From Segatella copri (lineage in GTDB: Bacteria; Bacteroidota; Bacteroidia; Bacteroidales; Bacteroidaceae), in contig NZ_CATKVU010000006.1 of NCBI RefSeq assembly GCF_949820605.1, forward strand, positions 3,011,001-3,075,000: DNA of 64,000 bases. The letters are read 5' to 3'. The translations under genes and the position numbers were made by a program. Below the pieces are notes generated by a model that had not been told where the DNA came from, made no database searches, and saw nothing but the letters and a program-made list of their open reading frames with translations. Each line of letters opens with the position of its first letter. Position 1 is the stretch's first letter. This document shows, piece by piece, positions 7,695 to 32,467 of this stretch.

Positions 7695-7766
7695 TGTCTG
7701 TTATTTTAAAGCCTAATACTATATTAACTGCAAATATAACTATTTATTGTTTTTATAAACAGATAC

Positions 7767-8831
7767 TTATAGATATTTTTGAAGTTGATGCTGGATGGGT
7801 AAAACGATGGCTTTCTTTGCTATCCATGCTGTGAGGATAATAAAAGCGAGGGATAGGATGAATTGGAATTCTTGATGTGGATTTCCTTCTCCATATCGTT
7901 TAAGAAATATACTCTGTATGATGCGAAAGCAGAGATTATGACAGAGAAATATTTCAAAACTGATGCTGCCTAGCCATAGCAAGAGTTTATTATGGAATAT
8001 CCTAATAAAACAACCTTTACCTTGATCTCTTGCTGTAAAATAGAACACGGTTATGGCTGATGGTATCCAATAAATAATGGCACAGCGAATGTTCGGATTG
8101 CAATGGATTGATAGAAAATACATTGCGATAAACAGCAATACCACTCCCATATCCGATAGGTTTACTTGCCAGAAAGAAGTTGGGTTTGTTATCTTATCTG
8201 CTATTTTTTTACCTTTTTCTGATCTGCATACTTTATATAAAAGGATACCTATCATGAAATCTATCATTCTGAATAATGGGTGGGCATAAATGTAGCCGGC
8301 TGAATAATCTGCTTGTGCACAGAGCGAGATACTGATATAAACTGCCATATATATACTTATTGTTACTAATAAGTATAACCAGGAATGTCGCATAATCCAA
8401 GCGTATAAATACTTAAATATAAGATAGAAGAAGATAAGATCAGAAATAAACCATGTAGCTGCATTGAGATGAGCCATAAAGTCATGTGCCGGATACCAGG
8501 TTTGTATCAACAGCGAATGGGATAGAATCTGATACCATGGTAATATACGCCCTAATCGCCAATCCATTAATATGAGAATGGCGAGAATCAGAATATGCAG
8601 AGGATAGAGTTTGATGATACGGGAAAGGAAAAACTGGCAGTTTCCCAATTCTTCTTTCTGTAGTTTTTCTCCTTTGCTTAAAGAGAGTACAAAACCACTG
8701 ATAACAAAGAAAATGGCAACAGGAAACTCGCCCAAGTAATTGATTAAATCTTGGGATATGGGTAGGGTGGAATGCGAAATCACAATCATTAGGATAAGAA
8801 TGAATCGCAGGGAATTGAGTGTCCTGATCAT
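7767..8831 (-). CDS. Acyltransferase-3 family membrane protein
   Basis: The 354-residue polytopic protein fits the usual size of acyltransferase-3 enzymes. Visible marks are the first helix NSLRFILILMIVISHST with its conserved Arg and His, VISGFVLSL at about 44-52, and a late SFEIFLCHNLCFR helix. Such proteins move acetyl or succinyl groups across the inner membrane onto sugars of O-antigen, exopolysaccharide or lipid-linked intermediates. It lies upstream of porZ on the same strand, with a 72-base gap, and completes the glycan block. Substrate unknown. Confidence 0.85.
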   Translation of the reverse strand: MIRTLNSLRFILILMIVISHSTLPISQDLINYLGEFPVAIFFVISGFVLSLSKGEKLQKEELGNCQFFLSRIIKLYPLHILILAILILMDWRLGRILPWYQILSHSLLIQTWYPAHDFMAHLNAATWFISDLIFFYLIFKYLYAWIMRHSWLYLLVTISIYMAVYISISLCAQADYSAGYIYAHPLFRMIDFMIGILLYKVCRSEKGKKIADKITNPTSFWQVNLSDMGVVLLFIAMYFLSIHCNPNIRCAIIYWIPSAITVFYFTARDQGKGCFIRIFHNKLLLWLGSISFEIFLCHNLCFRIIQSIFLKRYGEGNPHQEFQFILSLAFIILTAWIAKKAIVLPIQHQLQKYL

Positions 8832-8886
8832 GATGCCTTTTCTTTGTTATAATGTTATTCTATTCTGTATTGAACAAGAATGAATC

Positions 8887-15667: not shown

Positions 15668-15690
15668 ACAAGTTATTGGTAGTTCCAGTC

Positions 15691-15935
15691 TTGCTCAAAT
15701 CTAGAGAGTATCAGTCTCCCAGGCTTAACCACCATCGCAGAGAGCACTTTCGATGGTTGTAGTAAACTACAGGAAGTAAGAGTTCCTAGCACATTGGAGC
15801 GTATCGGTGACATGGCTTTCAACAATTGCAACAATTTGAACAACGTATATACTTATACCGTTCTCCCTATCAACATCGACCAGAATACGTTTACCAATTT
15901 CAAGGCTACTACCCTTTGGGTGCCATTTGGGATTA
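15691..15935 (+). pseudogene. Fragment of a BspA-like leucine-rich-repeat protein
   Basis: The plus strand encodes LRR_5-type repeats (TIAESTFDGCSKLQEVRVPS, then LERIGDMAFNNCNNLN) and ends WVPFG, close to the usual C-terminal part of such repeats. There is no start codon or signal peptide, and the frame runs into antisense of the next ATPase. BspA-like proteins are secreted surface proteins. An 8-base deletion relative to copy B breaks the frame near 15680. Confidence 0.8.
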
Positions 15936-15949
15936 TATTCTGTACTATT

Positions 15950-16444
15950 TTACATCATTTCCTTCTTAAACCAAAGCTCGAACACACAGTCGGCGATGAA
16001 AACTCCATCCTTTTCCAAGGTGATCAATTCCTTGTCGATGAGGGCTTTCTTGATGCGGTCGATATTGGATTTGCTGCCCAGCGGATAGGTTTCAGCTACA
16101 GCCTGGGCGGTGAAACCTGAGTGGACGCCACTGCAGAGGAGGCGCAGAAAATTGAGTTGATAGGTGGTTAAGTCCTCGGTTTGCTGTATGAAAAGACCAT
16201 GACATTGTTGCAGCAAGGCGCTGATGCCACTTTGTAAGGTTTCTTCGTTTACTTCTTTCTCGGTTTCTGCCATCACGTTCCAAGCTAGTTGCTGCACGTA
16301 GGAAGAATAGTTCTTTATGGTTTCACAGATTCTTGTTGCATATTCCTCAGATATACTCTTACCATATTTCTCGAACCGGGAGCAGATGAAAGGCACCCAA
16401 TATTCTGTAGGGATGCAATCCAGGTGAAGCATCTCTCCAAACAT
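15950..16444 (-). pseudogene. C-terminal fragment of an AAA-family ATPase (5' half deleted)
   Basis: About 165 residues match the C-terminal half of the intact 374-residue ATPase at 31343-32467, from FGEMLHLDCIPTEYWV to the end FELWFKKEMM. The P-loop half is missing. The junction near 16444 joins the middle of the gene to the near-palindrome that lies upstream of the intact gene, so about 0.7 kb including the promoter -7 element was lost. A longer frame from 16516 exists but its first 20 residues are translated palindrome. Confidence 0.88.
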
Positions 16445-16452
16445 AAGCAAAA

Positions 16453-16491
16453 AAAGTTCACAAGGTTGTGGACCATAAACTTGTGAACTTT
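16453..16491. repeat. 39-bp near-palindrome (ATPase operator copy 1)
   Basis: The arms AAAGTTCACAAG and CTTGTGAACTTT flank a 15-base centre that is itself almost symmetrical (TTGTGGACCATAA here). The same element occurs at 24810-24848 and 32512-32550. In the intact copy it overlaps the promoter; here the -7 element has been deleted. Confidence 0.85.
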
Positions 16492-16569
16492 TAATATTAT
16501 TTTGTAAATCAAGCATTTAAATGTGAGGAGAATTTACAGGCTAAGAGTCTGAGTGTGTTCTTTGTCTCA

Positions 16570-18018
16570 TTAAATAAACAATTCATCCATCGTAATCTGT
16601 TTCTGTACGATGTCGCTATGTTTGTTCTGCTTCAATCCGAAAGAAGTAATCAATGTGAGGAGAAGCGATTTGGAAGTCTTAGTCTCTTCTGTGAAGATAC
16701 GCAGTTTCTCCAGCAACTTCTCCTCATATTCCTTGCTGATTTCGAATTTGCTCTTGTAGAATTTCATCTCACAGATATTGATGGTTTCATCTTTCCGGTC
16801 TATCAGCAAGTCTATTTGAGTTCCCTTTTCTGTGTTGCTGCTTCGCCATGAGCAAACCAAGGTCTGTACTCCCGAAATTCCCAGGGCGTGCTTGATTTTG
16901 GCTATATGGTTTAGACAAAGCATCTCGAAAGACAAGCCAGCCCAAGTATGGTATAGCTGACTGTTCTGGGAGGATGACCAGAAACTGGAATCCTGATACT
17001 TGTTGTGCTTGATGAAACAGAAGTAGAAGAGTGTATAGAAATCTACTAACTGGAATAAGGTGTTTCGCTTTTGGCGAATGTCGGATGTCATCTTATTGGC
17101 TGTACTGAATGGTTCATACAGACGGATGAATCCGCATTGTTCCAATTCTTCCTGTACTGTAGAGAAGGCTCCGTTATCTTTTCCTCCCGATGCCTTGACC
17201 AGTTCCTGTCGGGTCATACCCATTCCTTTGGTAGCAAGGGCAGTAACCACGGCGATATGGTCGGCTGATTTCTTAAACAAAGCTCTGTATAAGTCGTTGA
17301 ACTCATCTTTCAGTTCTGCATTGTCTGCGAAAAACAGCTGGTCGATGTTCTGTGCCAGACTTTTCGATTTATCCATCATTGACAGATAATAAGGTATTCC
17401 TCCCATAACCATATAGCATTCTGCTATCTGTTTTCGGCTGTAGCCGAAGTGGTAAGCCTTGAAGTATTCTTCACATTCGTGCAGGGTGAATGGTTTTACA
17501 ATCATATGATGGGTCAGTCGGTTGTGCAAGCCACCACGGTTGCGAATCAGGTTGTTGATCATCCAGGAGGTGGCGGATCCGCAAACGATGAGTTTGATGT
17601 CGTTGCGCAGTACAGCCCAGCTGTTCCAGAAGTTTTCCAGTGCTGGTATGAATCCCGATTTGGCGGTATCCATCCATGGCAATTCATCGATGAATATTAC
17701 TTTCTTGCCTTCCGGAAGTGTTTCTATGTATTGTGACAGGGCATAGAATGCCAGCAGCCAGCTCTTGAATGTCTGCAGAGTGGTGGAGTGGGTATATTTT
17801 TGCAGGGCAATGCTGAAGTTGACAAGCTGTTCGCCTTTGGCAACTCCGTTCATTCCTGTCATGAAGAAGGCAAAATGGTCCTCTACGGCTTTTCTGATGA
17901 GAAAAGTCTTGCCTACACGTCGTCTTCCATAGACGGCGATAAACTCTGATCTATCGGAGTTTATATATTCATTGAGCAGTTTGAGTTCTGCTTCTCTTCC
18001 TATCAGTCTCTGTTCCAT
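16570..18018 (-). CDS. Archaeal-type AAA ATPase with C-terminal nuclease-like domain, copy A
   Basis: The 482-residue protein begins with an ATPase domain: GREAELKLL, Walker A YGRRRVGKTFL at about 30-40, Walker B KVIFIDELPW near 106-115, and a sensor block LIVCGSATSWM. A winged-helix-like middle (MTRQELVKASGG) follows. The C-terminus has a PD-(D/E)xK-like pattern, with Asp in GTQIDLLID and Glu/Lys in NICEMKFYK, as seen in DUF234-type ATPases. These are common, poorly understood Bacteroidota proteins; a role in nucleic-acid handling, defence or selfish maintenance is possible but unproven. A promoter -7 element (TATCTTTG on the minus strand) lies about 100 bases upstream, with a hairpin in between. 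Confidence 0.88.
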   Translation of the reverse strand: MEQRLIGREAELKLLNEYINSDRSEFIAVYGRRRVGKTFLIRKAVEDHFAFFMTGMNGVAKGEQLVNFSIALQKYTHSTTLQTFKSWLLAFYALSQYIETLPEGKKVIFIDELPWMDTAKSGFIPALENFWNSWAVLRNDIKLIVCGSATSWMINNLIRNRGGLHNRLTHHMIVKPFTLHECEEYFKAYHFGYSRKQIAECYMVMGGIPYYLSMMDKSKSLAQNIDQLFFADNAELKDEFNDLYRALFKKSADHIAVVTALATKGMGMTRQELVKASGGKDNGAFSTVQEELEQCGFIRLYEPFSTANKMTSDIRQKRNTLFQLVDFYTLFYFCFIKHNKYQDSSFWSSSQNSQLYHTWAGLSFEMLCLNHIAKIKHALGISGVQTLVCSWRSSNTEKGTQIDLLIDRKDETINICEMKFYKSKFEISKEYEEKLLEKLRIFTEETKTSKSLLLTLITSFGLKQNKHSDIVQKQITMDELFI

Positions 18019-18054
18019 CGTTATTTTCTTTTTGCAAAGAATAATGCAAGCGAG

Positions 18055-18082
18055 CGCAATGAAAGCTTGCTTTCAAATTGCG
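18055..18082 (-). repeat. Hairpin in the 5' leader of the 482-residue ATPase gene
   Basis: CGCAATGAAAGC and GCTTTCAAATTGCG pair with a 2-base bulge between promoter and start codon. The same hairpin is present in copy B near 26418-26445. It may affect mRNA stability or translation. Confidence 0.5.
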
Positions 18083-18250
18083 AGTGCAACTTATTTTCTG
18101 CGCAAAGATATGAAAAAATACCCATTAGCGCAGATTATCTGCGTATTTTGGCCTTTTTATTTAATACAGAATCATCGGCAAGAAGGGATAAACAGGGGCT
18201 ATAGTTTCTTCAGTTTGGCCCCATTGATTTGTTAGATGGCTATTATAAAA

Positions 18251-18340
18251 TACACTTTAAAGGACGACTTTTTGTGATTTTCCACACTTTTAAGAACGAC
18301 TTTTTGTAGTTTTATACATTTTTAAGGACGACTTTTTGTG
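18251..18340 (+). repeat. Three 26-bp iterons with an exact 32-bp period
   Basis: Units at 18251-18276, 18283-18308 and 18315-18340 share the core AAGGACGACTTTTTGTG, with AAGAACGACTTTTTGTA in the middle one. The third unit supplies the TTG of the -33 element. A 32-bp step is about three helical turns, so all units face the same side of the DNA, as for cooperative protein binding. Confidence 0.85.
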
Positions 18341-18367
18341 CTCTTTGAAATAAAAAATGTATCTTTG
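18336..18367 (+). promoter_or_regulatory. Promoter of the AAA_14 ATPase gene
   Basis: TTG at 18336-18338, 21 bases, then TATCTTTG at 18360-18367 fits the Bacteroidota promoter pattern. The -33 element lies inside iteron 3. Confidence 0.75.
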
Positions 18368-18397
18368 CATTCTGAAATATCAAATAATCAGATAGTT

Positions 18398-19690
18398 ATG
18401 AAGAGAAATGCCATCAAATACCTATATCAATGGAAAGCAAGCAACGACCGAAAGCCGTTGATCATGCTTGGAGCCCGCCAAGTTGGCAAAACCTGGCTGA
18501 TGCAGGAATTTGCCACAGAGGCCTATACCCATAGTGCGTATATAAACTTTGAAGACAATGAAATGCTCCGGGAAGTTTTTGCTCATGACTTTGATATCCC
18601 CCGCATTATTAATAGCATACAATGGAGTACAGGCGTTACTATAGACGAAGATACGCTTATTATCCTTGATGAGATACAAGAAGCGCCCAGGGGTATCACA
18701 GCATTAAAGTATTTTGCGGAAAAAGCACCTCAATATCATGTCGTAGCTGCAGGTTCATTGCTCGGAATAGCAATGCATCAGAATGACTCTTTTCCTGTAG
18801 GTAAGGTAGATTTCATGCATTTATATCCCCTCACATTCTTTGAATTTCTAGATGCAATCGGTGAAAGCCGTATGGTTGAACTGCTGATGTCAAAGGATTG
18901 GAATATGATAACCATGTTCCGGAATAAATTTGAGGAATGTCTGCGACAGTATTATCTGGTCGGGGGAATGCCGGCTGTAGTACAGTCTTTTGCCAGCGAG
19001 GGAAATCTGTCTGAAGTCAGAAGCATTCAAAAAGGAATCCTTGAAGCGTATGAGCGTGATTTTTCCAAACATGCTCCGGCCATAGAAGTTCCACGTATCC
19101 GAATGGTATGGAAATCCATCCCATCCCAGCTTGCCAAGGAAAACAAGAAATTCATCTATGGTGCCGTCAAGGAAGGAGCTAGAGCAAAGGATTTTGAGCT
19201 CGCTATCGAATGGCTGAAAGATGCAGGGTTGATCTATAAGGTAAACCGTTGTAAGAAAGCCCTGTTGCCATTGGCTGCATACGAGGATTTTTCTGCTTTC
19301 AAGTTATTCCTGTCTGATGTGGGACTGATGGGAGCCATGAGCAATATTCCTGCCCAAAGCTTGCTGGAAGGAAATGTGCTGTTTTCAGATTTTAAGGGGG
19401 CACTGACAGAGCAGTATGTCCTGCAGCAGCTTAAGGAGAAATCTTCCTTGTCTATCTATTATTGGTCGGCAGAAAATTCACGTGGTGAAATAGATTTTCT
19501 AGTGCAGGATGAAGAAAGAATCATTCCGATAGAAGTAAAGGCTGAGGAGAATTTGCAGGCTAAGAGTTTGAGGGTGTTTGTAGAGCGCAATCAGGGATTG
19601 AAAGGTATGCGCCTATCCATGTCACCTTATAGAGAGCAGGATTGGCTTGCCAATTATCCATTATATTCCGTGTCTGCAATATTTGGATAA
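18398..19690 (+). CDS. AAA_14 / DUF4143 family ATP-binding protein
   Basis: The start ATG at 18398 (MKRNAIKYLYQWK) is preferred over an upstream TTG-type start at 18338, which would lie inside the promoter. The 430-residue protein has Walker A GARQVGKTWL near residue 24, Walker B LIILDEIQEA near 85-94, and the sensor AAGSLLGIA. The C-terminal DUF4143 part has the nuclease-like EIDFLVQ and PIEVKAEENL motifs. This family is abundant in gut Bacteroidota and its function is not established. The gene is flanked by direct repeats of its own leader and followed by a hairpin terminator. Confidence 0.9.
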   Translation: MKRNAIKYLYQWKASNDRKPLIMLGARQVGKTWLMQEFATEAYTHSAYINFEDNEMLREVFAHDFDIPRIINSIQWSTGVTIDEDTLIILDEIQEAPRGITALKYFAEKAPQYHVVAAGSLLGIAMHQNDSFPVGKVDFMHLYPLTFFEFLDAIGESRMVELLMSKDWNMITMFRNKFEECLRQYYLVGGMPAVVQSFASEGNLSEVRSIQKGILEAYERDFSKHAPAIEVPRIRMVWKSIPSQLAKENKKFIYGAVKEGARAKDFELAIEWLKDAGLIYKVNRCKKALLPLAAYEDFSAFKLFLSDVGLMGAMSNIPAQSLLEGNVLFSDFKGALTEQYVLQQLKEKSSLSIYYWSAENSRGEIDFLVQDEERIIPIEVKAEENLQAKSLRVFVERNQGLKGMRLSMSPYREQDWLANYPLYSVSAIFG

Positions 19691-20868: not shown

Positions 20869-21306
20869 ACGTGTTGTTACTTATTATTGCATTCAAAGGT
20901 AGTGCTTTTAGCCTTTAAGCCACTATTGCACAACCCCTTTTTTTGAAAAAAACGTAAAATTAATAGTTTTATTGCTGTGATTGTACTTTTATTAACTAAA
21001 GTTTCCCACCCCAAAATAATAGGGTAAAAATAACAGTTTCTCGATAAAAAGTTGTATCTTTGTAATCGCTAAAGAACAAAATTGAAGAAGTTCCTCCAAG
21101 GGTGGAATATTCTTTCACACCAATAGCCAAGGACTTCTTGTGAGAAATCAGTTACGTCATAGAATGGGGGCAGCTGCATTTTGAGCAGATAGTGAAGGGT
21201 AGAAAATAATCATATATATACATTTATATTCTTTAACTAAACATTGTGCAGTCATCAAGCCTTTGATGTATCTATATCAAAATAGATAGTACGAAACAAT
21301 TCGCTC
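20869..21306 (+). promoter_or_regulatory. 438-bp gap with promoter and long leader of the sigma-barrel gene
   Basis: A -7 element TATCTTTG lies at 21055-21062, without a good -33 match. Transcription from there would give a leader of about 235 bases. Within it, AAGAAGTTCCT (21085-21095) can pair with AGGACTTCTT (21130-21139), with one bulged base. The leader could carry regulation, but I recognise no known riboswitch. The rest of the gap is AT-rich and shows no gene. Confidence 0.45.
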
Positions 21307-22998
21307 ATGGCTTCAAATATAACAACATTAGTAGAAAAAGCAAAACAAGGTGACGCTGACGCTTTCAGCACATTATACCAAATGTATTATCCTAAGATGA
21401 AAGGGATATGCATCAATATTCTTAGAGAGGACAAGGCTGTCGTTGACGACCTTGTCCAAGATGCTTTTATACTTGCGTTTGTTTCATTGAAAGACTTGAA
21501 GAATACTCATAGGTTTAGTCAATGGCTTACAAGTATCACTACTAACCTTGTATTGAAATATCAGGAGAAAGGTAAGAGATACGATTTCATTTCCTTGTCT
21601 GATATAGAGGATGAATTTAGTTCCGTATTGGAAGATGGCAACACTTCCAAGCAATCAATTCCGTATGAGGAAATTATGGTAGCAATAGACAGTTTGCCTG
21701 AAGGGTATAAGAAAATATTCAACATGTCTGTTTTGGATGGCTTGTCTCATCAAGAAATCAGCGAATTACTTGATATTGCTCCACATAGTTCTTCCTCACA
21801 ATTGTCAAGGGCAAAGGCAATGTTGCGAAACATATTGTCTCCAAGAGCTATGTTTATCATCGTATTGGCGTTGATAGTCATCCCTGTATATAGATATTTT
21901 ACAGCAAAGAAAAAAATAGTTTCAGAAAATGATGTGAATATAGTTCGAACTCGAAAGCCTAATGAAGACATTACGCCTATACAAAAGAAGCCTAATGTTT
22001 CTGTTAGTAGAATACAAAACGCTATTTTGTGCTCTAATTATCGAAGTGTTCAACAGGGAAAGAACACTGTAATAACTGTTGGCGATTCGATTAAGGCAAG
22101 TCAAAATGTAATAGTCGAAATATCCGATTCTTTGCAGGATAACCAACATATTTGGGCTGATAACAAGAGAGATAGTATCATCACAAAAGATACTGTATAT
22201 ACACCTATTCCAAACGAGGAAAGATGGATTGCGGATGATACAAAGACGCACAAGAAAAGTAAATGGCAATTGCTTGCAACTGGTTCTTTGGGTACTACTC
22301 TTGCGCAAAATGTTTGTAAGATTCTAACAAGTAGCGGTGATGATATTACGAGTGAACAACCTTCAAAAAAGATTTTTACTACATGGGAAGAGTATTCTGA
22401 ATATCTACATCGCTTAACACCAACTGACCCAACGGCGGAAAATGTTGCAATGATGGATATTGCCGATAATAACAAGGGCAAAATTGAAGAGGTAGAACAT
22501 CATGACAAACCTATAATATTAGGATTGGCTGTGAACAAGAGCATAGGAAAGCATTGGAGTTTAGAAACAGGACTCCAATACTCTTACTTGAAGTCATATT
22601 TTACTTTGGGTACTGGCAATTATCGTGTTGACAAGGAACAAAAGTTGCATTACATCGGTATCCCTGTCAAGCTCTCGTACCAATTCATGGCGTACAAGAA
22701 ACTGTCGGCTTACGGTTCTGCAGGAGCAAGCATTCAGATACCATTGTCAGGAAAGACATATGCAGACTATGTAGTAGGAGGAAAGTCTGGCTATACAACG
22801 GATTGGAAGACAATACCTTCTATACAGTGGACTGTAAACACTAACATCGGAATACAATATCAATTTGCACCAAAGTTGACATTGTTTGTTGAGCCAACGC
22901 TGAATTGGTACATTCCGAATGGAAGCGAAGTCAAGAATACTTGGACAGAACGTCCATTTACATTGACTGTACCTTTCGGTATTAGGCTCTCTTGGTAA
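21307..22998 (+). CDS. ECF sigma factor fused through a membrane helix to an outer-membrane beta-barrel
   Basis: The 563-residue frame is unbroken. Residues 5-85 are sigma-70 region 2 (AFSTLYQMYYPKMKGIC, DDLVQDAFILAF, FSQWLTSI). Residues 118-175 are region 4 (IDSLPEGYKKIFNM, then LDGLSHQEISELL with helix-turn-helix spacing). A single hydrophobic helix, about 181-198, follows (AMFIIVLALIVIPVYRYF) with a basic stop (KKK). Residues 200-400 are polar and probably periplasmic. Residues 401-563 form an OmpA/porin-like barrel with alternating strands (SLETGLQYSYL, YIGIPVKLSYQF, IGIQYQFAPKLTLFVEPT) and a terminal aromatic residue (RLSW), the usual barrel-assembly signal. The protein could thus span cytoplasm, inner membrane, periplasm and outer membrane. 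Dual-membrane anti-sigma factors (Dma) of Bacteroides have a comparable barrel; here the sigma factor itself is tethered. Confidence 0.9.
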   Translation: MASNITTLVEKAKQGDADAFSTLYQMYYPKMKGICINILREDKAVVDDLVQDAFILAFVSLKDLKNTHRFSQWLTSITTNLVLKYQEKGKRYDFISLSDIEDEFSSVLEDGNTSKQSIPYEEIMVAIDSLPEGYKKIFNMSVLDGLSHQEISELLDIAPHSSSSQLSRAKAMLRNILSPRAMFIIVLALIVIPVYRYFTAKKKIVSENDVNIVRTRKPNEDITPIQKKPNVSVSRIQNAILCSNYRSVQQGKNTVITVGDSIKASQNVIVEISDSLQDNQHIWADNKRDSIITKDTVYTPIPNEERWIADDTKTHKKSKWQLLATGSLGTTLAQNVCKILTSSGDDITSEQPSKKIFTTWEEYSEYLHRLTPTDPTAENVAMMDIADNNKGKIEEVEHHDKPIILGLAVNKSIGKHWSLETGLQYSYLKSYFTLGTGNYRVDKEQKLHYIGIPVKLSYQFMAYKKLSAYGSAGASIQIPLSGKTYADYVVGGKSGYTTDWKTIPSIQWTVNTNIGIQYQFAPKLTLFVEPTLNWYIPNGSEVKNTWTERPFTLTVPFGIRLSW

Positions 22999-23025
22999 GA
23001 AAGTATCATTTTGCATGCAGTCTTT

Positions 23026-23868
23026 ATGAATGATCTGTATCTATATATACAGAAAAGTCAAAAAATAAGATACATGCAAAAAAGACATACAGACAGAAAG
23101 ATGTATTTCCGTGACTTGGAGATAACATCTAAGGAGTTTTACATCAGCTATTTGTCAGATTTTACGGAACTGACATCAAAGAGTAGAATCTTGGAGGTAG
23201 GCTGTGGTGAAGGAGGAAACTTAGTTCCCTTTGCACAGTTGGGCTGCAAAGTGACAGGTATAGATATTGCCGAATGCAGAATTAAAGAAGCCAAAGCATA
23301 CTTTTCTGAAATCAGCAATCATGTCACATTTGTATGCAGTGATTTCATGCAATATCCTGTTCCATGTAATGAAGAGGATAAATATGACGTAATACTATTA
23401 CATGATGTGATAGAACACGTTCCGACAAAAGAGCCATTTCTTGCACACCTAAGAAAGTTTATGAAAACAAAAGGCGTGCTGTTTGTCGGATTCCCCGCAT
23501 GGCAAATGCCTTTTGGAGGACATCAACAGATTTGCAGAAGCAAACTTTGCTCACATCTGCCATTCATTCACTTGCTGCCAAACCCTTTATACCGGTTGTT
23601 GCTAAAAACATGCAATGAAAAAAAAGGAACTATGAATGAGCTTATGAGCATAAAAGAATGCCGAACAAGTATAGAGTTGTTTGAAAGACTCATACACCAA
23701 TGCGGCTTCTCGATAACAGACCAAAAACTTTGGTTTATCAATCCTCATTACAAGCAGAAGTTCCACCTTACCCCACGACTCTTGCCACATTGGGTCTGGA
23801 AGATGAAGTATATCAGAAATTTCTTCACCACTTCATGCTGGTATATATTGACCATAAGCCATAAATAG
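23026..23868 (+). CDS. Class I SAM-dependent methyltransferase
   Basis: The 280-residue protein has the Rossmann-type methyltransferase core: RILEVGCGEGGNLVPFA (motif I, SAM-binding), GIDIAECRIKEA (acidic end of strand 2), and VILLHDVIEHV (motif with the His typical of the Methyltransf_11/UbiG-like group). The C-terminal part is basic and unassigned. I start at ATG 23026 (MNDLYLYIQ); an upstream TTG at 23011 is less likely, and MQKRHTDRK at 23083 is another possible start. It begins 27 bases after the sigma-barrel stop on the same strand, so cotranscription is plausible. Substrate unknown. Confidence 0.82.
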   Translation: MNDLYLYIQKSQKIRYMQKRHTDRKMYFRDLEITSKEFYISYLSDFTELTSKSRILEVGCGEGGNLVPFAQLGCKVTGIDIAECRIKEAKAYFSEISNHVTFVCSDFMQYPVPCNEEDKYDVILLHDVIEHVPTKEPFLAHLRKFMKTKGVLFVGFPAWQMPFGGHQQICRSKLCSHLPFIHLLPNPLYRLLLKTCNEKKGTMNELMSIKECRTSIELFERLIHQCGFSITDQKLWFINPHYKQKFHLTPRLLPHWVWKMKYIRNFFTTSCWYILTISHK

Positions 23869-23949
23869 AACTTACGTTCTTTAGGCAACCATTGAATCTA
23901 TGAAACAATAAATAAGATATACTTAACCATTTCGGAAAAGCAGACTCCA

Positions 23950-24292
23950 AAAAACAGTATTGGAATCTGTTTTCAGTCTTGCTTTAATCTGAAGTCTATT
24001 CAGTTCCCTCCATCATTGAGAACAATTGGTAATCATGCATTCCAGTCTTGCTCAAATCTTGAGAGTATCAGTCTCCCAGGCTTAACCACCATTGCAGAGA
24101 GCACTTTCGATGGTTGTAGTAAACTACAGGAAGTAAGAGTTCCTAGCACATTGGAGCGTATCGGTGACATGGCTTTCAACAATTGCAACAATTTGAACAA
24201 CGTATATATTTATACCGTTCTCCCTATCAACATCGACCAGAATACGTTTACCAATTTCAAGGCTACTACCCTTTGGGTGCCATTTGGGATTA
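23950..24292 (+). pseudogene. BspA-like leucine-rich-repeat fragment, copy B
   Basis: The open stretch encodes three to four LRR_5 units (IGICFQSCFNLKSIQFPPS, TIGNHAFQSCSNLES, TIAESTFDGCSKLQ, RIGDMAFNNCNNL) and ends WVPFG. It extends about 90 bases further upstream than copy A and is in frame throughout, but has no start or signal peptide. It is a captured gene fragment rather than a functional gene. Confidence 0.8.
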
Positions 24293-24306
24293 TATTCTGT
24301 ACTATT

Positions 24307-24801
24307 TTACATCATTTCCTTCTTAAACCAAAGCTCGAACACACAGTCGGCGATGAAAACTCCATCCTTTTCCAAGGTGATCAATTCCTTGTCGATGAGG
24401 GCTTTCTTGATGCGGTCGATATTGGATTTGCTGCCCAGCGGATAGGTTTCAGCTACAGCCTGGACGGTGAAACCTGAGTGGACGCCACTGCAGAGGAGGC
24501 GCAGAAAATTGAGTTGATAGGTGGTTAAGCCCTCGGTTTGCTGTACGAAAAGACCATGACATTGTTGCAGCAAGGCGCTGATGCCGCTTTGCAAAGTTTC
24601 TTCGTTTACTTCTTTCTCGGTTTCTGCCATCACGTTCCAAGCTAGTTGCTGCACGTAGGAAGAATAATTCTTTACGGTTTTACAGATTCTTGTAGCATAT
24701 TCCTCAGATATACTCTTACCATATTTCTCGAACCGGGAGCAGATGAAAGGCACCCAATATTCTGTAGGGATGCAATCCAGGTGAAGCATCTCTCCAAACA
24801 T
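24307..24801 (-). pseudogene. C-terminal fragment of an AAA-family ATPase, copy B
   Basis: It has the same truncation as copy A: about 165 residues starting at FGEMLHLDCIPTEYW and ending FELWFKKEMM. The P-loop half and the promoter are absent. It is closely similar to the C-terminal half of the intact gene at 31343-32467, which gives three related copies within 17 kb. Confidence 0.88.
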
Positions 24802-24809
24802 AAGCAAAA

Positions 24810-24848
24810 AAAGTTCACAAGGTTGTGGACCACAAACTTGTGAACTTT
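24810..24848. repeat. 39-bp near-palindrome (ATPase operator copy 2)
   Basis: The arms AAAGTTCACAAG and CTTGTGAACTTT with centre TTGTGGACCACAA match the intact copy at 32512-32550 base for base. The downstream promoter part is deleted, as in copy A. Confidence 0.85.
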
Positions 24849-24926
24849 TAATATTATTTTGTAAATCAAGTATTTAAATGTGAGGAGAATTTACAGGCTA
24901 AGAGTCTGAGTGTGTTCTTTGTCTCA

Positions 24927-26375
24927 TTAAATAAACAATTCATCTATCGTAATCTGTTTCTGTACGATGTCGCTATGTTTGTTCTGCTTCAATCCGAAAG
25001 AAGTAATCAATGTGAGGAGAAGCGATTTGGAAGTCTTAGTCTCTTCTGTGAAGATACGCAGTTTCTCCAGCAACTTCTCCTCATATTCCTTGCTGATTTC
25101 GAATTTGCTCTTGTAGAATTTCATCTCACAGATATTGATGGTTTCATCTTTCCGGTCTATCAGCAAGTCTATTTGAGTTCCCTTTTCTGTGTTGCTGCTT
25201 CGCCATGAGCAAACCAAGGTCTGTACTCCCGAAATTCCCAAGGCGTGCTTGATTTTGTCTATATGGTTTAGACAAAGCATCTCGAAAGACAAGCCAGCCC
25301 AAGTATGGTATAGCTGACTGTTCTGGGAGGATGACCAGAAACTGGAATCCTGATACTTGTTGTGCTTGATGAACCGGAAGTAGAAGAGTGTATAGAAATC
25401 TACTAACTGGAATAAGGTGTTTCGCTTTTGGCGAATGTCGGAAGTCATCTTATTGGCTGTACTGAATGGTTTATACAGACGGATGAATCCGCATTGTTCC
25501 AATTCTTCCAGTACAGTAGAGAAGGCTCCATTATCTTTTCCTCCCGATGCCTTGACCAGTTCCTGTCGGGTCATACCCATTCCTTTGGTAGCAAGGGCAG
25601 TAACCACGGCGATATGGTCGGCTGATTTCTTAAACAAAGCTCTGTATAAGTCGTTGAACTCATCTTTCAGTTCTGCATTGTCTGCGAAAAACAGCTGGTC
25701 GATGTTCTGTGCCAGACTTTTCGATTTATCCATCATTGACAGATAATAAGGTATTCCTCCCATGACCATATAGCATTCTGCTATCTGTTTTCGGCTGTAG
25801 CCGAAGTGGTAAGCCTTGAAGTATTCTTCGCATTCGTGCAGGGTGAATGGTTTTACAATCAGATGATGGGTCAGTCGGTTGTGCAAGCCACCACGGTTGC
25901 GAATCAGGTTGTTGATCATCCAGGAGGTGGCGGATCCGCAAACGATGAGTTTGATGTCGTTGCGCAGTACAGCCCAGCTGTTCCAGAAGTTTTCCAGTGC
26001 AGGTATGAATCCCGATTTGGCGGTATCCATCCATGGCAATTCATCGATGAATATTACTTTCTTGCCTTCCGGAAGTGTTTCTATGTATTGTGACAGGGCA
26101 TAGAATGCCAGCAGCCAGCTCTTGAATGTCTGCAGAGTGGTGGAGTGGGTATATTTTTGCAGGGCAATGCTGAAGTTGACAAGCTGTTCTCCTTTGGCAA
26201 CTCCGTTCATTCCTGTCATGAAGAAGGCAAAATGATCCTCTACGGCTTTTCTGATGAGAAAAGTCTTGCCTACACGACGTCTTCCATAGACGGCGATAAA
26301 CTCTGATCTATCGGAGTTTATATATTCATTGAGCAGTTTGAGTTCTGCTTCTCTTCCTATCAGTCTCTGTTCCAT
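24927..26375 (-). CDS. Archaeal-type AAA ATPase with C-terminal nuclease-like domain, copy B
   Basis: This 482-residue protein differs from copy A at a handful of positions (HHLIV for HHMIV, VLEE for VQEE, YKPF for YEPF, YFRF for YFCF, HIDKI for HIAKI, ITIDEL for ITMDEL). Walker A YGRRRVGKT, Walker B IFIDELPW and the C-terminal IDLLID and CEMKFYK motifs are all kept. Keeping both copies intact suggests recent duplication or selection for both. The upstream hairpin and -7 element (TATCTTTG on the minus strand) are also preserved, with a 6-bp insertion just before the start codon. Confidence 0.88.
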   Translation of the reverse strand: MEQRLIGREAELKLLNEYINSDRSEFIAVYGRRRVGKTFLIRKAVEDHFAFFMTGMNGVAKGEQLVNFSIALQKYTHSTTLQTFKSWLLAFYALSQYIETLPEGKKVIFIDELPWMDTAKSGFIPALENFWNSWAVLRNDIKLIVCGSATSWMINNLIRNRGGLHNRLTHHLIVKPFTLHECEEYFKAYHFGYSRKQIAECYMVMGGIPYYLSMMDKSKSLAQNIDQLFFADNAELKDEFNDLYRALFKKSADHIAVVTALATKGMGMTRQELVKASGGKDNGAFSTVLEELEQCGFIRLYKPFSTANKMTSDIRQKRNTLFQLVDFYTLFYFRFIKHNKYQDSSFWSSSQNSQLYHTWAGLSFEMLCLNHIDKIKHALGISGVQTLVCSWRSSNTEKGTQIDLLIDRKDETINICEMKFYKSKFEISKEYEEKLLEKLRIFTEETKTSKSLLLTLITSFGLKQNKHSDIVQKQITIDELFI

Positions 26376-26506
26376 ATCTTTCGTTATTTTCTTTTTGCAA
26401 AGAATAATGCAAGCGAGCGCAATGAAAGCTTGCTTTCAAATTGCGAGTGCAGCCTATTTTCTGCGCAAAGATATGAAAAAATACCCATTAGCGCAAATTA
26501 TTCGTG

Positions 26507-26554
26507 GATAATCTGCGCTAATGATGTGAAAAAAGTACGTTAGCGCAGATTATC
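26507..26554. terminator. Hairpin related to the AAA_14 terminator
   Basis: GATAATCTGCGCTAA (26507-26521) and TTAGCGCAGATTATC (26540-26554) form a perfect 15-bp stem, followed by TGTGTTTTGGTCTTTTTATT. It matches the hairpin at 19708-19761, though no rightward gene ends just before it here. Confidence 0.55.
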
Positions 26555-26616
26555 TGTGTGTTTTGGTCTTTTTATTTAATACAGAATCATCGGCAAGAAG
26601 GGATAAACAGGGGCTA

Positions 26617-27185
26617 CTATTTCTTCGATTTACCAAGTTGGTAAAACCTGATTCTGCGTCTTTGATTCTTCTACATGGTAAGAAAAATTGGCAGCAGGGA
26701 TGCTTCCCGTCACGATGAATGGATTATATTGATAGTCATATCTTCTTCTTCAGTTATAATTATTTAGGTGCAAGGATAAGGCTAATATTTGGATAATGGT
26801 GGATGACTGAGATATAATTCTGTCAAATCTATGCTAAAATACTACGATTTGGCAAAATGGCGGAATGTTTTTAGGCTCTTGTCCCATCATCTATGAATAC
26901 CGCCAATATTCTGACAACAAGGACAAGCAGACTGGAGGTTCACGCATAGGTGTGACCTGTTCTGTCGTTTGTTGTTGTGTAGGTCGCTTGGCGGTAACCG
27001 ATAGATGTGACAAACTGAAGGAATGGTTGCATGCCTTTTACTTTTTACCTAAAAACGGAATAGCATTAGCCACCGCAACGATTACCATAACTAAAAAATA
27101 TTAATTAAAACTTTTGACTATAATTGCTTCAATAGAAAATATTGCTGCTTCGCAACACTTTTTTGCCGTTTCGAATAAGGAGACG
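26617..27185. other. About 570-bp gap with a small AAA_14 remnant
   Basis: Near 26630-26655 the plus strand reads ACCAAGTTGGTAAAACCTG, which matches the Walker A region (Gln-Val-Gly-Lys-Thr) of the AAA_14 gene at about 18478. No frame continues from it, so it looks like a scrap of a deleted ATPase gene at the duplication border. The rest, to 27185, shows no gene that I can support. Confidence 0.45.
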
Positions 27186-28173: not shown

Positions 28174-28314
28174 AGACAGTATGAAATCGTCTGAAGATTT
28201 GCCTTTATTTTTAAGGCGTTTTGGAGCCTTGAAGAGGGAGTGTTGCAAGCTACACGACCGATGAACGTGGGTGATAGAATATCCACCGACAATAAACATA
28301 TGATAAAATATATA

Positions 28315-28893
28315 ATGAGAAAGATTGTATTATCATTATTTGCATTATGCTGTTTTTCGGCAGTAATGGCACAACAGAAGACACGTAACCTGTCTGTAGA
28401 ATTACTTGGTGCCCAAAATATTGTGGGCATCAACTACGACAGTAGATTCGATGGAAACTCCGGGTTAGGCTACCGCATAGGCATTGGCTATGGCTATGGA
28501 GACAATTCTGGTTTGTTCGACCAGAAAATCAATGGCGTTGGCGTTCCGTTGGAGCTAAACTATCTGCTCGGAAAGAAGAATAGCAAATTGGAGCTGGGTT
28601 TCGGTGCGAGTCTTGGTGTATATCAAGTAAAGGAAACAATGGGATACGTCAAAGATACAGGGTGGTATCCAGGTGGGGAGAATACAGACGAAACTTCTCC
28701 TAAAATTGATTTTTATACTTCATCAAAAACTCAATTCGGCTATTTTCTCTTCGGCAACATCGGCTACCGCTATCAGCGCCCCAACGGATTCATGTTTCGT
28801 GTTGGCGTATCGCCGTCCTTCAATTTCGGAGACAAGTATGGACTCAAAAAGGCAGCCTTCTTTCCATATATCGGTTTAGGTTGGTCGTTCTAA
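28315..28893 (+). CDS. Small outer-membrane beta-barrel protein
   Basis: The 192-residue protein has a signal peptide (MRKIVLSLFALCCFSAVMAQ, cut after MAQ) and eight or so amphipathic strands, ending in a terminal aromatic residue (IGLGWSF). An upstream in-frame ATG at 28300 is a possible start, but ATG 28315 gives the cleaner signal peptide. This is the size and pattern of 8-stranded OmpW/OmpX-like porins of Bacteroidota. It lies 141 bases after the lipoprotein and ends at a shared bidirectional terminator, opposite the LytTR regulator. Confidence 0.8.
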   Translation: MRKIVLSLFALCCFSAVMAQQKTRNLSVELLGAQNIVGINYDSRFDGNSGLGYRIGIGYGYGDNSGLFDQKINGVGVPLELNYLLGKKNSKLELGFGASLGVYQVKETMGYVKDTGWYPGGENTDETSPKIDFYTSSKTQFGYFLFGNIGYRYQRPNGFMFRVGVSPSFNFGDKYGLKKAAFFPYIGLGWSF

Positions 28894-28947: not shown

Positions 28948-29703
28948 TTATTTTTCCAACCATTTCTTAAACAATGTCGCTTTCTCCTTGCTTATCACAA
29001 TATTCTCATCCTCACATCCTTTCAATCTTACTATGAGTTTGGAACTGAAGTAAAAACTGATTTTCCTGATGCCATTAATGTTGGCGATATACTGTCGATT
29101 GAGACGGAAGAAACGGGCAGGGTCTAAAGCCTGCTCCAGGTCGTTCATGCTCATGGGCAGCGGATAGGATGTGCCGTCGACAGCAAACGCCGTGATTCGG
29201 TTGTCGTGTATATTGATGTAGCTTATGTCGTCGGCGCAGAGCATGCAAAGCTCGTCGCCTTTCGTGATTAGGAAGCGCTCACGGTATTGGCGTGTGTCGT
29301 TAAGCACGCCGTGCAGAGGTCTCTCTACGGCAGACTGTTGTGCATTGCGGTTAAGCTGCAGCTTGCCGATTGCGGCACATAGCTCGTTTGCGTCAATCGG
29401 CTTCATCAGATAGTCGAGTCCGTTGTTCTTAATCGCCTCCATTGCGTATTCATCGTAAGCCGTGGTGAATATCACGAACGACTGTGGCATCACCTTGCGG
29501 AACGCTTCAAACACGTCGCCGTCAGCAAGTCGGATGTCGGAGAAGATAAGGTCATAGTCGTTGTTGGCGGCAAGCTCCTCTGTCACCTCCGCCACACTTT
29601 TCAGCGGTCCATGCACGTCTATCGTGTCGTCAATATCCATAATGAGCCTTTTCAGACGTCTTGCGCTGAAATGGTCGTCTTCTATAATCAATACCTTTTG
29701 CAT
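28948..29703 (-). CDS. LytTR-family response regulator
   Basis: The 251-residue regulator has an N-terminal receiver (VLIIEDDHFSARRL, phospho-acceptor Asp in FSDIRLADG near 56, switch Lys in YLMKPIDA) and a C-terminal LytTR DNA-binding domain (about 150-250, with FLRLNRQYIANINGIRKI-type text). It overlaps nothing and starts 7 bases after the kinase stop, so the two form one leftward operon. LytTR pairs in Bacteroidota often control surface genes; the convergent lipoprotein and OMP are plausible but unproven targets. Confidence 0.93.
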   Translation of the reverse strand: MQKVLIIEDDHFSARRLKRLIMDIDDTIDVHGPLKSVAEVTEELAANNDYDLIFSDIRLADGDVFEAFRKVMPQSFVIFTTAYDEYAMEAIKNNGLDYLMKPIDANELCAAIGKLQLNRNAQQSAVERPLHGVLNDTRQYRERFLITKGDELCMLCADDISYINIHDNRITAFAVDGTSYPLPMSMNDLEQALDPARFFRLNRQYIANINGIRKISFYFSSKLIVRLKGCEDENIVISKEKATLFKKWLEK

Positions 29704-29710
29704 CGTTCTT

Positions 29711-30736
29711 CTATTGTTTTCGTTTTATGATTGGCAGTCGCACCTCAAAGGCATCCTGTCTGGCTACGAACTCTGGCTCTGCCTCGCCCTCCAGTCGGTA
29801 GCGTTGCTTCAGGTTGCTGATACCTATTCCGTACGACTCTATGCTCTGGTCGTTGGTCTGGTTGGTATATATGCGGTTGTTCTTTATGACGAGCATGTCG
29901 CCCTGGCGCCCAATAGACACATGAAGCTCAGTGCCGCTCTGCGGACAGTTGTGCTTCACGGCATTCTCGATGATAAGCTGTAGACTCAGCGAGAGGATGC
30001 ATTCGTTGCGGTCGCCGTGCAAATTGTCGGCGTGCAGGACGATGGTGTTGTCGTAGCGCATGTTGAGCAGGCCGATGTACGACTTGATGAAGTCGGTGCC
30101 GTCGGCAAGGGTTATATACTCCTTGTCGATATGCTGAAGTATGTAGCGGTAGATATGTGAGAGTTTCACGACATAGTCCTCAGCCATCTTCGGGTTTTCC
30201 CCTATCATTCCAGCAAGTGAACTAAAACTGTTGAACACGAAATGTGGGTCCAACTGCAGCATAAGGTATCGCTTCTGTAAGGCGAGGTTCTCCTTGCCTT
30301 TCAGAACAATCATGTCGGAGAAGTGCATCGAAAGGTGGATGAGCGCTACAAGACTCGCTATCAGTCCAAATAGGAAAGACGTTCCCCATATATCCTGCAT
30401 CATAAGCTTAGGTGCTACAAGGCTCAGCAGCAGTTCGCAGCCACCAGCAATAAGCAGGTTGAAGCCCAACACCACCAGTCCGTTCTGCACAAACACACGG
30501 TGGCCCTGCCATTCGCGCCAAAAGCGCTGCTGTTTGAACAGCCATCGGTTGAGATACAAACTCGAAAGCGAGAACAAACCGCAGAGTGCAAAGTCAACAA
30601 GCAACTCAGGATACAGTCCGCTTACCGACTGTAGGAAGTCGGGCAGGTCAACCAATATCCAGATGATATCGTACAGGAAGAAGAATATAAGCGAGTAGAC
30701 AAGCCACTCAAGAAAAGAGTTCTTGGATCTATGCAT
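29711..30736 (-). CDS. LytS-type membrane histidine kinase
   Basis: The 341-residue kinase has four hydrophobic helices in its first 150 residues, a short coiled segment, then a His_kinase domain: the phospho-accepting His in LQLDPHFVFNSF, the N box LIIENAVKHNCP, and the glycine block GIGISNLKQRYRL. No periplasmic sensor domain is visible, so it probably senses through its membrane part. The start codon lies two bases from the end of a truncated AAA gene, so the promoter region upstream has been replaced. Confidence 0.93.
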   Translation of the reverse strand: MHRSKNSFLEWLVYSLIFFFLYDIIWILVDLPDFLQSVSGLYPELLVDFALCGLFSLSSLYLNRWLFKQQRFWREWQGHRVFVQNGLVVLGFNLLIAGGCELLLSLVAPKLMMQDIWGTSFLFGLIASLVALIHLSMHFSDMIVLKGKENLALQKRYLMLQLDPHFVFNSFSSLAGMIGENPKMAEDYVVKLSHIYRYILQHIDKEYITLADGTDFIKSYIGLLNMRYDNTIVLHADNLHGDRNECILSLSLQLIIENAVKHNCPQSGTELHVSIGRQGDMLVIKNNRIYTNQTNDQSIESYGIGISNLKQRYRLEGEAEPEFVARQDAFEVRLPIIKRKQ

Positions 30737-31342: not shown

Positions 31343-32467
31343 TTACATCATTTCCTTCTTAAACCAAAGCTCGAACACACAGTCGGCGATGAAAACTCCA
31401 TCCTTCTTTAGGGTGATTAATTCCTTGTCGATGAGGGCTTTCTTGATGCGGTCGATATTGGATTTGCTGCCCAGCGGATAGGTTTCAGCTACAGCCTGGG
31501 CGGTGAAACCTGAGTGGACGCCACTGCAGAGGAGGCGCAGAAAATTGAGCTGATAGGTGGTTAAGCCCTCGGTTTGCTGTACGAAAAGACCATGACATTG
31601 TTGCAGCAAGGCGCTGATGCCACTTTGTAAGGTTTCTTCGTTTACTTCTTTCTCGGTTTCTGCCATCACGTTCCAAGCTAGTTGCTGCACGTAGGAAGAA
31701 TAGTTCTTTACGATTTTACAGATTCTTGTAGCATATTCCTCAGACATTTTCTTTCCGTATTTCTCGAATCGGGAACAGATGAAAGGCACCCAATATTCAG
31801 TAGGAATGCAATCCAAGTGCAGCATCTCGCCAAACATATAGAAAGGCATGCGTCGGTTTTGGAAAATGTTTTCCATCAGATGCTTCTTGCTTCCAAAGAA
31901 ACAGTATGATACATTCTGATGATGCTGCCAGGCGCCACGCAGTTTTTTCTGAACCGTAAGAGTATCAGGGAATTCTCCAATTTGCTGGAATTCGTCGATG
32001 CAGACCACCATGCGGATTCCCTTTTCCTGAGCGATTCTTTCCGGAAGATTCAGAATCTCTTCAGGGGAATAGTCCTTTGGTGTAATTCCCATAGATAATG
32101 AATATTCGGATGTAGGATCTGGACTAAAGGAGATTTTTGGTGAAACTCTTACCAGGAACTGCTTGATGTTTTCTACTACTTGTTCCAGCTTATTACTCAT
32201 AGATTTCATAATGGTTTCTACAAAGCGATTGTAGAAATCATATTCGCTTCGGCAGTCATAGATGTCCATATACACCACTTTTATCTCTGGATTATCAATT
32301 TCGGATATAACCTTTTTGACGAGCGAAGTCTTGCCCATGCGTCGGGGAGAGATGAGAATGACGTTGATGCCATGCTCAAAGTCTGCCTTGATGCGCTTGG
32401 TTTCTTCTATTCGGTCGGTGAAGTTGTTTCCTGCAACCGACATACCATATACGAATGCCTTTTCCAT
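31343..32467 (-). CDS. AAA-family ATPase (intact parent of the truncated copies)
   Basis: The 374-residue protein has Walker A SPRRMGKTSLV near 41-51, Walker B VVCIDEFQQIG near 170-180, a sensor YCFFGSKKHLM, and a helical/winged C-terminus (SGVHSGFTAQAVAETYPLGS, then IADCVFELWF). It has no C-terminal nuclease-like motif, unlike the other ATPases here. It is the complete version of the two fragments at 15950 and 24307. Its start codon follows a well-formed promoter whose -33 element lies in the 39-bp near-palindrome, which suggests autoregulation. Function unknown. Confidence 0.88.
   Translation of the reverse strand: MEKAFVYGMSVAGNNFTDRIEETKRIKADFEHGINVILISPRRMGKTSLVKKVISEIDNPEIKVVYMDIYDCRSEYDFYNRFVETIMKSMSNKLEQVVENIKQFLVRVSPKISFSPDPTSEYSLSMGITPKDYSPEEILNLPERIAQEKGIRMVVCIDEFQQIGEFPDTLTVQKKLRGAWQHHQNVSYCFFGSKKHLMENIFQNRRMPFYMFGEMLHLDCIPTEYWVPFICSRFEKYGKKMSEEYATRICKIVKNYSSYVQQLAWNVMAETEKEVNEETLQSGISALLQQCHGLFVQQTEGLTTYQLNFLRLLCSGVHSGFTAQAVAETYPLGSKSNIDRIKKALIDKELITLKKDGVFIADCVFELWFKKEMM

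Follow-up and report, generated by a model that had tools for sequence, protein, structure and literature searches.

The window analyzed here, a 64,000-nt stretch of a Segatella copri contig, carries a gene in which an ECF sigma factor, a TM helix, a tether and an outer-membrane barrel are fused, followed by a methyltransferase gene; each is preceded by a putative promoter. The features are as follows:

21082..21213, + strand: remnant (3′ end) of a gene for a small HxlR-type regulator, the complete gene being present in locus L031 (1838-2218)
21214..23973, + strand: horizontally shared unit of P1, fused gene, P2 and methyltransferase gene (blastn, 2.76 kb)
21247..21274, + strand: putative promoter P1, TGCAGTC-N14-GTATCTA, 60 nt before the fused ATG
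21307..22998, + strand: fused ECF sigma factor-TM helix-tether-outer-membrane barrel, a single intact 563-aa frame
21373..21579, + strand: sigma region 2, residues 23-91 (Pfam PF04542; fold match to sigmaE region 2)
21667..21825, + strand: sigma region 4, residues 121-173 (Pfam PF08281; recognition helix PHSSSSQL at 159-166)
21832..21906, + strand: membrane helix, about residues 176-200 (hydropathy; invariant columns of alignments A1 and A2)
21931..22368, + strand: predicted disordered periplasmic tether, residues 209-354 (pLDDT <50; the least conserved part)
22489..22995, + strand: predicted C-terminal outer-membrane beta-barrel, residues 395-563 (Pfam, structure model, fold match; final residue Trp)
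23016..23043, + strand: putative promoter P2, TGCAGTC-N14-GTATCTA, 58 nt before the methyltransferase ATG
23074..23868, + strand: class I SAM-dependent methyltransferase, 264 aa (Pfam Methyltransf_25, 1.2e-15; start set by homology with L034 and L036)

The original prediction, that a sigma factor and an outer-membrane barrel are joined in one polypeptide, was borne out by the intact frame, the Pfam matches and the fold match, and the C-terminal part was indeed predicted by structure to be a barrel whose last residue is Trp. The fused protein scored 80.0 bits against the NCBIfam superfamily profile TIGR02937 (cut-off 42.9), which identifies it as an ECF sigma factor, and 83.2 bits, below the curated cut-off of 126.4, against the Bacteroidetes sigma subfamily TIGR02985, which we take as a stand-in for ECF21. 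The hydrophobic stretch begins within about 10 residues after sigma region 4, so that the membrane helix lies directly behind this region; its placement is by hydropathy, the confidence of the structure model being low there, and Pro193 within it is invariant in alignments A1 and A2. The tether, about 145 residues long, is disordered in the predicted structure (pLDDT <50). The Foldseek list for the fused protein was headed by sigma factors and held weak barrel matches (OmpA-long, 2e-3), the barrel fold match becoming clear only in a later fold comparison. Within the variable tether, a D-[ST]-L element at residues 274-276 (window 22126-22134) stands out as near-invariant, with D274 invariant and L276 nearly so, and is possibly a protease or chaperone site.

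A scan of ten window neighbours, namely the methyltransferase and nine ORFs between 16570 and 30736, revealed no separate ECF sigma gene beside the fused gene (E <= 0.01), and the fused protein gave no Pfam match to a periplasmic anti-sigma domain of the IutY type. A profile of Dma-type N-termini matched all 31 separate barrel proteins (29 distinct; E <= 2.5e-16), a set that includes its own training sequences, and matched none of 24 fused proteins below E 0.0079, the weak match at this value falling on the membrane helix. As judged by this profile, the fused family lacks the anti-sigma domain that ordinary Dma proteins have, just as had been anticipated, and we thus rejected membership in the ordinary Dma anti-sigma family, even though the tether and the C-terminal barrel are present.

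Extent and origin of the fused family

A search with the fused protein gave 1558 matches at E <= 1e-5 among 7995 scored candidates; the 120 listed best matches, one of which stands for a cluster of 7409 member sequences, span 98-100% of the query and are 562-605 residues long. A search with a diverse alignment gave 1537 matches at E <= 1e-20, the best 120 of which were likewise listed. The sigma-barrel layout was common to the 240 best-listed relatives, so that the expected domain order was found in 241 of the 241 proteins examined; all of them showed a hydrophobic peak at residues 155-215, and 239 ended in Trp.

In the first sample, drawn from the genus of the nearest genome, an intact fused gene was present in 11 of 36 genomes, with a contig-end piece in one more. 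Among 393 genomes of the order, at least five carried an uninterrupted fused frame (G402, G372, G433, G266 and G422) and at least three more an interrupted or split one (G410, G347 and G104), these counts being lower bounds from three scored candidates per genome; the other rows listed were nearly all matches to a separate sigma or barrel protein. A second genus of the family gave matches in at least 13 of 158 genomes, 10 with intact and three with broken copies, again as lower bounds, from eight scored candidates per genome. As for damaged copies, the fused gene of Bacteroides heparinolyticus (L037, 6001-7691) is broken into two frames, the frames in G592 and G609 are interrupted, and the split copy in G104 (L079/L112) is also without the promoter word described below.

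Purifying selection was apparent on both the sigma end and the barrel end, and dN/dS was 0.10-0.24 for the barrel and 0.28-0.66 for the linker. The sigma parts of 24 fused proteins formed one branch against 34 separate sigma factors (SH-aLRT 100), as did the fused barrels against 29 separate barrels (SH-aLRT 91). Single branches in both trees fit a fusion that arose once and was followed by long divergence.

Promoter-like sites and neighbouring genes

P1 and P2 share an identical box pair at identical spacing. In the window, TGCAGTC-N14-GTATCTA has two matches at up to one mismatch, both of them exact, compared with none in 100 shuffles. The word TGCAGTC was first spotted by comparing the regions upstream of fused genes, by eye in the window and the first batch of loci, and later batches were fetched with the motif fixed. 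This putative -35 word recurs at divergent fused loci whose proteins are 28-68% identical to that of the window (alignment A1), and the -10 box takes locus-specific forms (GTATCTA as in the window, ACTCC/ACTCT, GGACTATA as in L047, and ATCATA). The proposed check for a promoter motif shared between the upstream region and target genes therefore came out positive, at P1, at P2 and in the relatives.

Exact TGCAGTC[TA] stands directly before the fused gene in 27 of 38 distinct fused loci, a number that rises to 34 when same-strand neighbours are also considered. The 38 loci are the window, L036, L042-L053, L055, L056, L104-L111, L148-L150, L154, L155 and L174-L182; the near-copies L031-L035, L037, L038 and L147 were not counted as loci. 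The scripted count was 26 and 32 of 34 recognised loci, to which L181 and L051 were added: the pattern used by the script missed L056, L149, L154 and L181, of which only L181 has the exact word, and the script gave no credit to L051, where the word stands before the upstream neighbour. An earlier count, including L054 (contig end) and L112 (split gene), had found the word before the fused gene at 17 of 26 loci. At the loci fetched after the motif had been fixed, it preceded the fused gene in 17 of 22, and in 20 of 22 when the same-strand neighbour was included. As a control, the word was found at one of 33 separate sigma genes, some of these loci having been fetched twice (e.g., L013/L081), and a general Bacteroidales sigma signal was thus rejected. 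An insertion-site repeat is also unlikely, since the sites of divergent loci are found at the starts of genes, oriented in sense and with a fixed spacing.

Over 39 sites, the -10 boxes within a locus agreed in 6.4 of 8 letters (19 pairs) versus 4.9 of 8 between loci (722 pairs), an agreement reached by none of 2000 label shuffles, the sites having been picked by word and place and the related loci L047, L049, L050 and L106 not being independent. The spacer showed no clear within-locus effect across the 39 sites (0.07).

Eleven of the 38 loci are without the exact word before the fused gene. The word precedes the upstream neighbour instead in L048, L051 and L053; TGCAGTA precedes the fused gene in L046 and in L148, and in L154 both promoters have it; and the one-mismatch versions TGCAGTG and CGCAGTC occur in L108 and L104, respectively, the -10 box of the latter breaking the -10 rule. 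AGCAGTA, with two mismatches, precedes the cluster's first gene in L055 and in L056, and L149 has no defensible site, exact or mismatched. If mismatches are allowed, 37 of the 38 loci carry a site (L055, L056 and L154 on mismatches alone), these versions having been found afterwards with the exceptions in view. The chance expectation for a site with a plausible -10 box is about 0.02 (one mismatch) or 0.18 (two mismatches) per 160 nt, real sites included, and by the latter value the sites of L055 and L056 are weak.

The recognition helix, PH[ST]SSSQL, shows few changes in the 24 fused proteins, with P159 and H160 in 23 and S163 in all 24. The 34 separate sigma factors mostly have E at 159, with S, N or K at 160 and A, R or K at 163. 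Such a near-invariant region 4 helix fits one shared -35 word. A joint change of helix and box looked promising in L154, which combines H160R with TGCAGTA in both promoters; the idea failed because L046 and L148 have TGCAGTA with the usual helix.

In whole genomes, the sites appear to be nearly restricted to the fused loci. With strict patterns, which miss weaker sites, all 14 matches to TGCAGTC-N14-GTATC lay at the unit, in nine genomes with the unit or a piece of it (reversed control, 2), or, in L040, at a remnant of the unit. All 12 matches to the GACT form (six of 17 genomes; reversed control, 0) and all 11 to the ATCWT form (seven of eight genomes; reversed control, 1) lay at fused loci. 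The predicted regulon is one to three neighbouring genes, with a frequent enzyme partner.

The methyltransferase is such a partner, and homologues with 45-76% identity lie beside divergent fused genes. Among 120 genomes searched, 13 had a match, and in nine of these the homologue adjoins the fused gene or is one gene away; it lies elsewhere in G500, G004 and G534, and as a fragment in G013. Family searches gave only general class I matches for this enzyme and indicated no substrate. Methyltransferase neighbours bear a site in the window, L036, L046, L105, L148, L150, L155, L174, L175, L177 and L178. Radical SAM/SPASM neighbours bear one in L044, L045, L047, L050, L104, L106 and L108 (Pfam in L045, L047 and L108) and are followed by a Gfo/Idh-type oxidoreductase gene (Pfam run in L045, L104 and L108). 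Other site-bearing neighbours are a C13-type peptidase gene (L053), an acyltransferase gene (L181) and small genes without a Pfam match (L047, L049 and L110). As an aside, the radical SAM/SPASM and Gfo/Idh-type pair recurs after the fused genes of L044, L045, L047, L050, L104 and L106-L108, and possibly represents an undescribed modification pathway.

Mobility of the two-gene unit

By blastn, the unit is shared over 2.65-2.89 kb at 90-98% DNA identity with L031-L035, L037 and L038, and at 75.6% with L036. The similarity of the window ends at about 21214 (21082 with L031) on the left and at 23973 or earlier on the right, and its flanks match none of these loci except for 132 bp on the left side shared with L031, where the regulator gene is HxlR by Pfam (4.9e-16). 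Some flanking sequence is common to L032, L033, L034, L037 and L038.

The fused proteins and the LeuS proteins were at variance. In S. copri iA622, LeuS is 99% identical to that of the window and the fused protein 87%, whereas in Prevotella UBA5387 the fused protein is 97% identical and LeuS 76%. The fused proteins of Leyella (94 and 92%), Hallella (90%) and B. heparinolyticus (89%, broken frame) are likewise closer to that of the window than is the fused protein of iA622, LeuS being 75-86% identical in these and UBA5387. No such excess was seen in L036 (fused protein 67%, LeuS 77%). Taken together, the sequence comparisons indicate that the 2.76-kb unit has moved between genera. The original prediction had included neither this mobility nor the methyltransferase partner and its promoter.

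Among other observations around these loci, L035 has genes of Abi-like, Mob_Pre relaxase and Toprim primase type among its neighbours (Pfam). In the window, the unit is flanked by near-identical blocks 8.36 kb apart (15683-18405 and 24040-26631; 98-99% identity over two listed stretches and 87% over a third), each with an ATPase_2-type gene of 482 aa (16570-18018 and 24927-26375), to which the ORF at 31343-32467 looks related. A further small barrel-like ORF without a Pfam match (28240-28893) adjoins a LytTR response regulator and histidine kinase (28948-30736).

Known systems and the proposed mechanism

The statement in the original prediction that no characterised protein has this layout is outdated as to the layout, since Dma3 of B. 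thetaiotaomicron (bt_2778-2779) is described as having its own N-terminal sigma domain and no adjacent ECF21 sigma gene (PMC13088901). With its N-terminal sigma factor, one membrane helix, disordered tether and C-terminal barrel, the window protein is a member of the Dma3 kind, going by that description. The available text of PMC13088901 states the role of Dma3 to be unknown and reports that the dma3 locus rises on loss of dma1 or dma2; bt_2778, which is annotated as a sigma-70 factor, shows a 2.3-fold change in an iron stimulon table (PMC10434189). The available parts of these two papers give no promoter, regulon or role for Dma3. Its two-gene locus resembles the pairs of fused gene and methyltransferase gene in L174, L175 and L177, three loci of a different genus within the family, and we would guess that bt_2779 is a methyltransferase. 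The window unit, unlike Dma3 as described in the available text, is mobile, and is found in Segatella, Leyella, Hallella and others. In the literature seen, mainly open-access and in part, we found neither a description of the promoter, regulon or mobility of fused proteins nor experiments on family members beyond the remarks on Dma3. What is new here, as far as that literature goes, is the promoter, the regulon and the mobility, the layout itself being known already from Dma3.

Dma1 and Dma2 with Das1 and Das2 (ECF21), and a sigma/anti-sigma pair of P. vulgatus as described in PMC9308784, share with the fused family the membrane helix, disordered tether, C-terminal barrel, ECF sigma factor and envelope theme. 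What sets them apart from the fused family is an N-terminal anti-sigma domain and a sigma factor encoded by a gene of its own, and the fused family forms its own branch in the sigma and barrel trees. The P. vulgatus pair is reported to be induced by likely envelope stress and to lengthen O-antigen (PMC9308784). The closest studied fusion is IutY of Pseudomonas putida (ECF243), a sigma factor fused to a membrane-spanning regulator and reported to be freed by Prc and RseP on an outer-membrane signal (PMC8999054, PMC5411451). IutY has a periplasmic anti-sigma domain and a separate receptor, IutA, with no barrel of its own described in the parts available, whereas the window protein has, as its periplasmic part, a disordered tether that runs to a barrel. 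The C-terminal fusions of ECF52/48/53 in Actinobacteria (e.g., SCO4117) also have a membrane-spanning extension and expected proteolytic release (PMC8999054), but differ in their zinc-finger anti-sigma domain and other extracytoplasmic parts, the available text mentioning no outer-membrane barrel.

On balance, we consider it fairly probable that the window protein is a self-tethered sigma factor of the Dma3 kind with proteolytic release and a tiny, portable regulon. From the layout, we infer that the sigma part would be cytoplasmic and separated by a few residues from the inner membrane, which the chain would cross once, and that the disordered tether would span the periplasm to the barrel in the outer membrane. 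A sigma factor tethered in this way would be ill placed to engage RNA polymerase or DNA, and hence silent. A disturbance of the barrel, such as envelope damage, failed barrel insertion or a ligand, would make the tether accessible to a periplasmic protease, with a site-2 protease then cutting within the membrane helix and freeing the sigma factor. The free sigma factor would read TGCAGTC-N14-GTATCTA and switch on its own gene, thereby amplifying itself and supplying the outer membrane with a new reporter, together with the methyltransferase gene, whose product would presumably alter the cell surface. The invariant proline and the precedent of IutY are suggestive of release by proteolysis. A site-2 protease family member was found in all eight genomes; as all 14 control genomes have one too, this makes release possible and no more. 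It is our guess that a surface-modifying methyltransferase would fit the O-antigen response of the P. vulgatus pair. Given that the fused gene, its partner and both promoters move as a unit, the circuit would need only the core polymerase and common proteases of its host.

The chances are about even, in our estimate, for the broader proposal that a whole trans-envelope signal chain lies in one polypeptide without an anti-sigma factor, has spread as a portable two-promoter, two-gene circuit and has diversified into many insulated paralogues, nearly all of which would share the -35 box and recognition helix, each having its own -10 box common to a handful of adjacent genes. With the present analysis, the Dma3 kind gains a concrete, testable candidate promoter, a predicted regulon and a frequent enzyme partner. 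Such a single-protein switch from outer membrane to gene, already moving between gut species, would help in studying the passage of information across two membranes, and would offer a set of sigma/promoter pairs that may be insulated.

One version of this self-tethered mechanism, differing in the signal only, takes the barrel as a folding reporter rather than a receptor: an uninserted barrel would open the tether to proteases, and the protein would measure the capacity for outer-membrane assembly. The good conservation of the barrel (see the dN/dS values above), the induction of the P. vulgatus barrel pair by likely envelope stress (PMC9308784) and the increase of the dma3 locus in cells lacking dma1 or dma2 (PMC13088901) all agree with it, and we hold it as a tentative alternative with a reasonable share of the probability.

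It is rather unlikely that the sigma factor works while tethered, without proteolysis, a change in the barrel altering its freedom or oligomeric state. CadC and ToxR are membrane-bound regulators that work in this manner. The absence of an anti-sigma domain and of a mapped cleavage site would be compatible with such action, as would the closeness of the strict-scan matches to the fused gene, within reach of a membrane-bound regulator; against it, region 4 ends only about 10 residues from the hydrophobic stretch, leaving little room for the holoenzyme, and IutY is reported to need RseP (PMC5411451).

Less likely still is that another regulator or sigma factor of the host reads TGCAGTC-N14-GTATCTA and that the fused protein is merely one of its targets. 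The rise of dma3 in dma1 and dma2 mutants indicates that other sigma factors can influence that locus (PMC13088901), and box and helix show no visible joint change. However, the sites travel with the unit into different genera with a locus-specific -10 part, they are absent from 32 of the 33 separate sigma genes, and a near-invariant box is paired with a near-invariant helix, all of which argue against another reader.

Chance fusion or assembly error, to which the broken or split copies (L037, G104, G592 and G609) might point, was rejected as next to impossible in view of the family counts (1558 matches and the cluster of 7409), the layout in 241 of 241 proteins and the purifying selection at both ends.

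As a minor observation, the fused gene of L053 has the C13-type peptidase gene (3262-4236) on its upstream side and is immediately followed by a serpin gene (6951-8837), placing a protease and a protease inhibitor beside a sigma factor that may be freed by proteolysis; the upstream genes of L055 and L056 look similar to those of L053.
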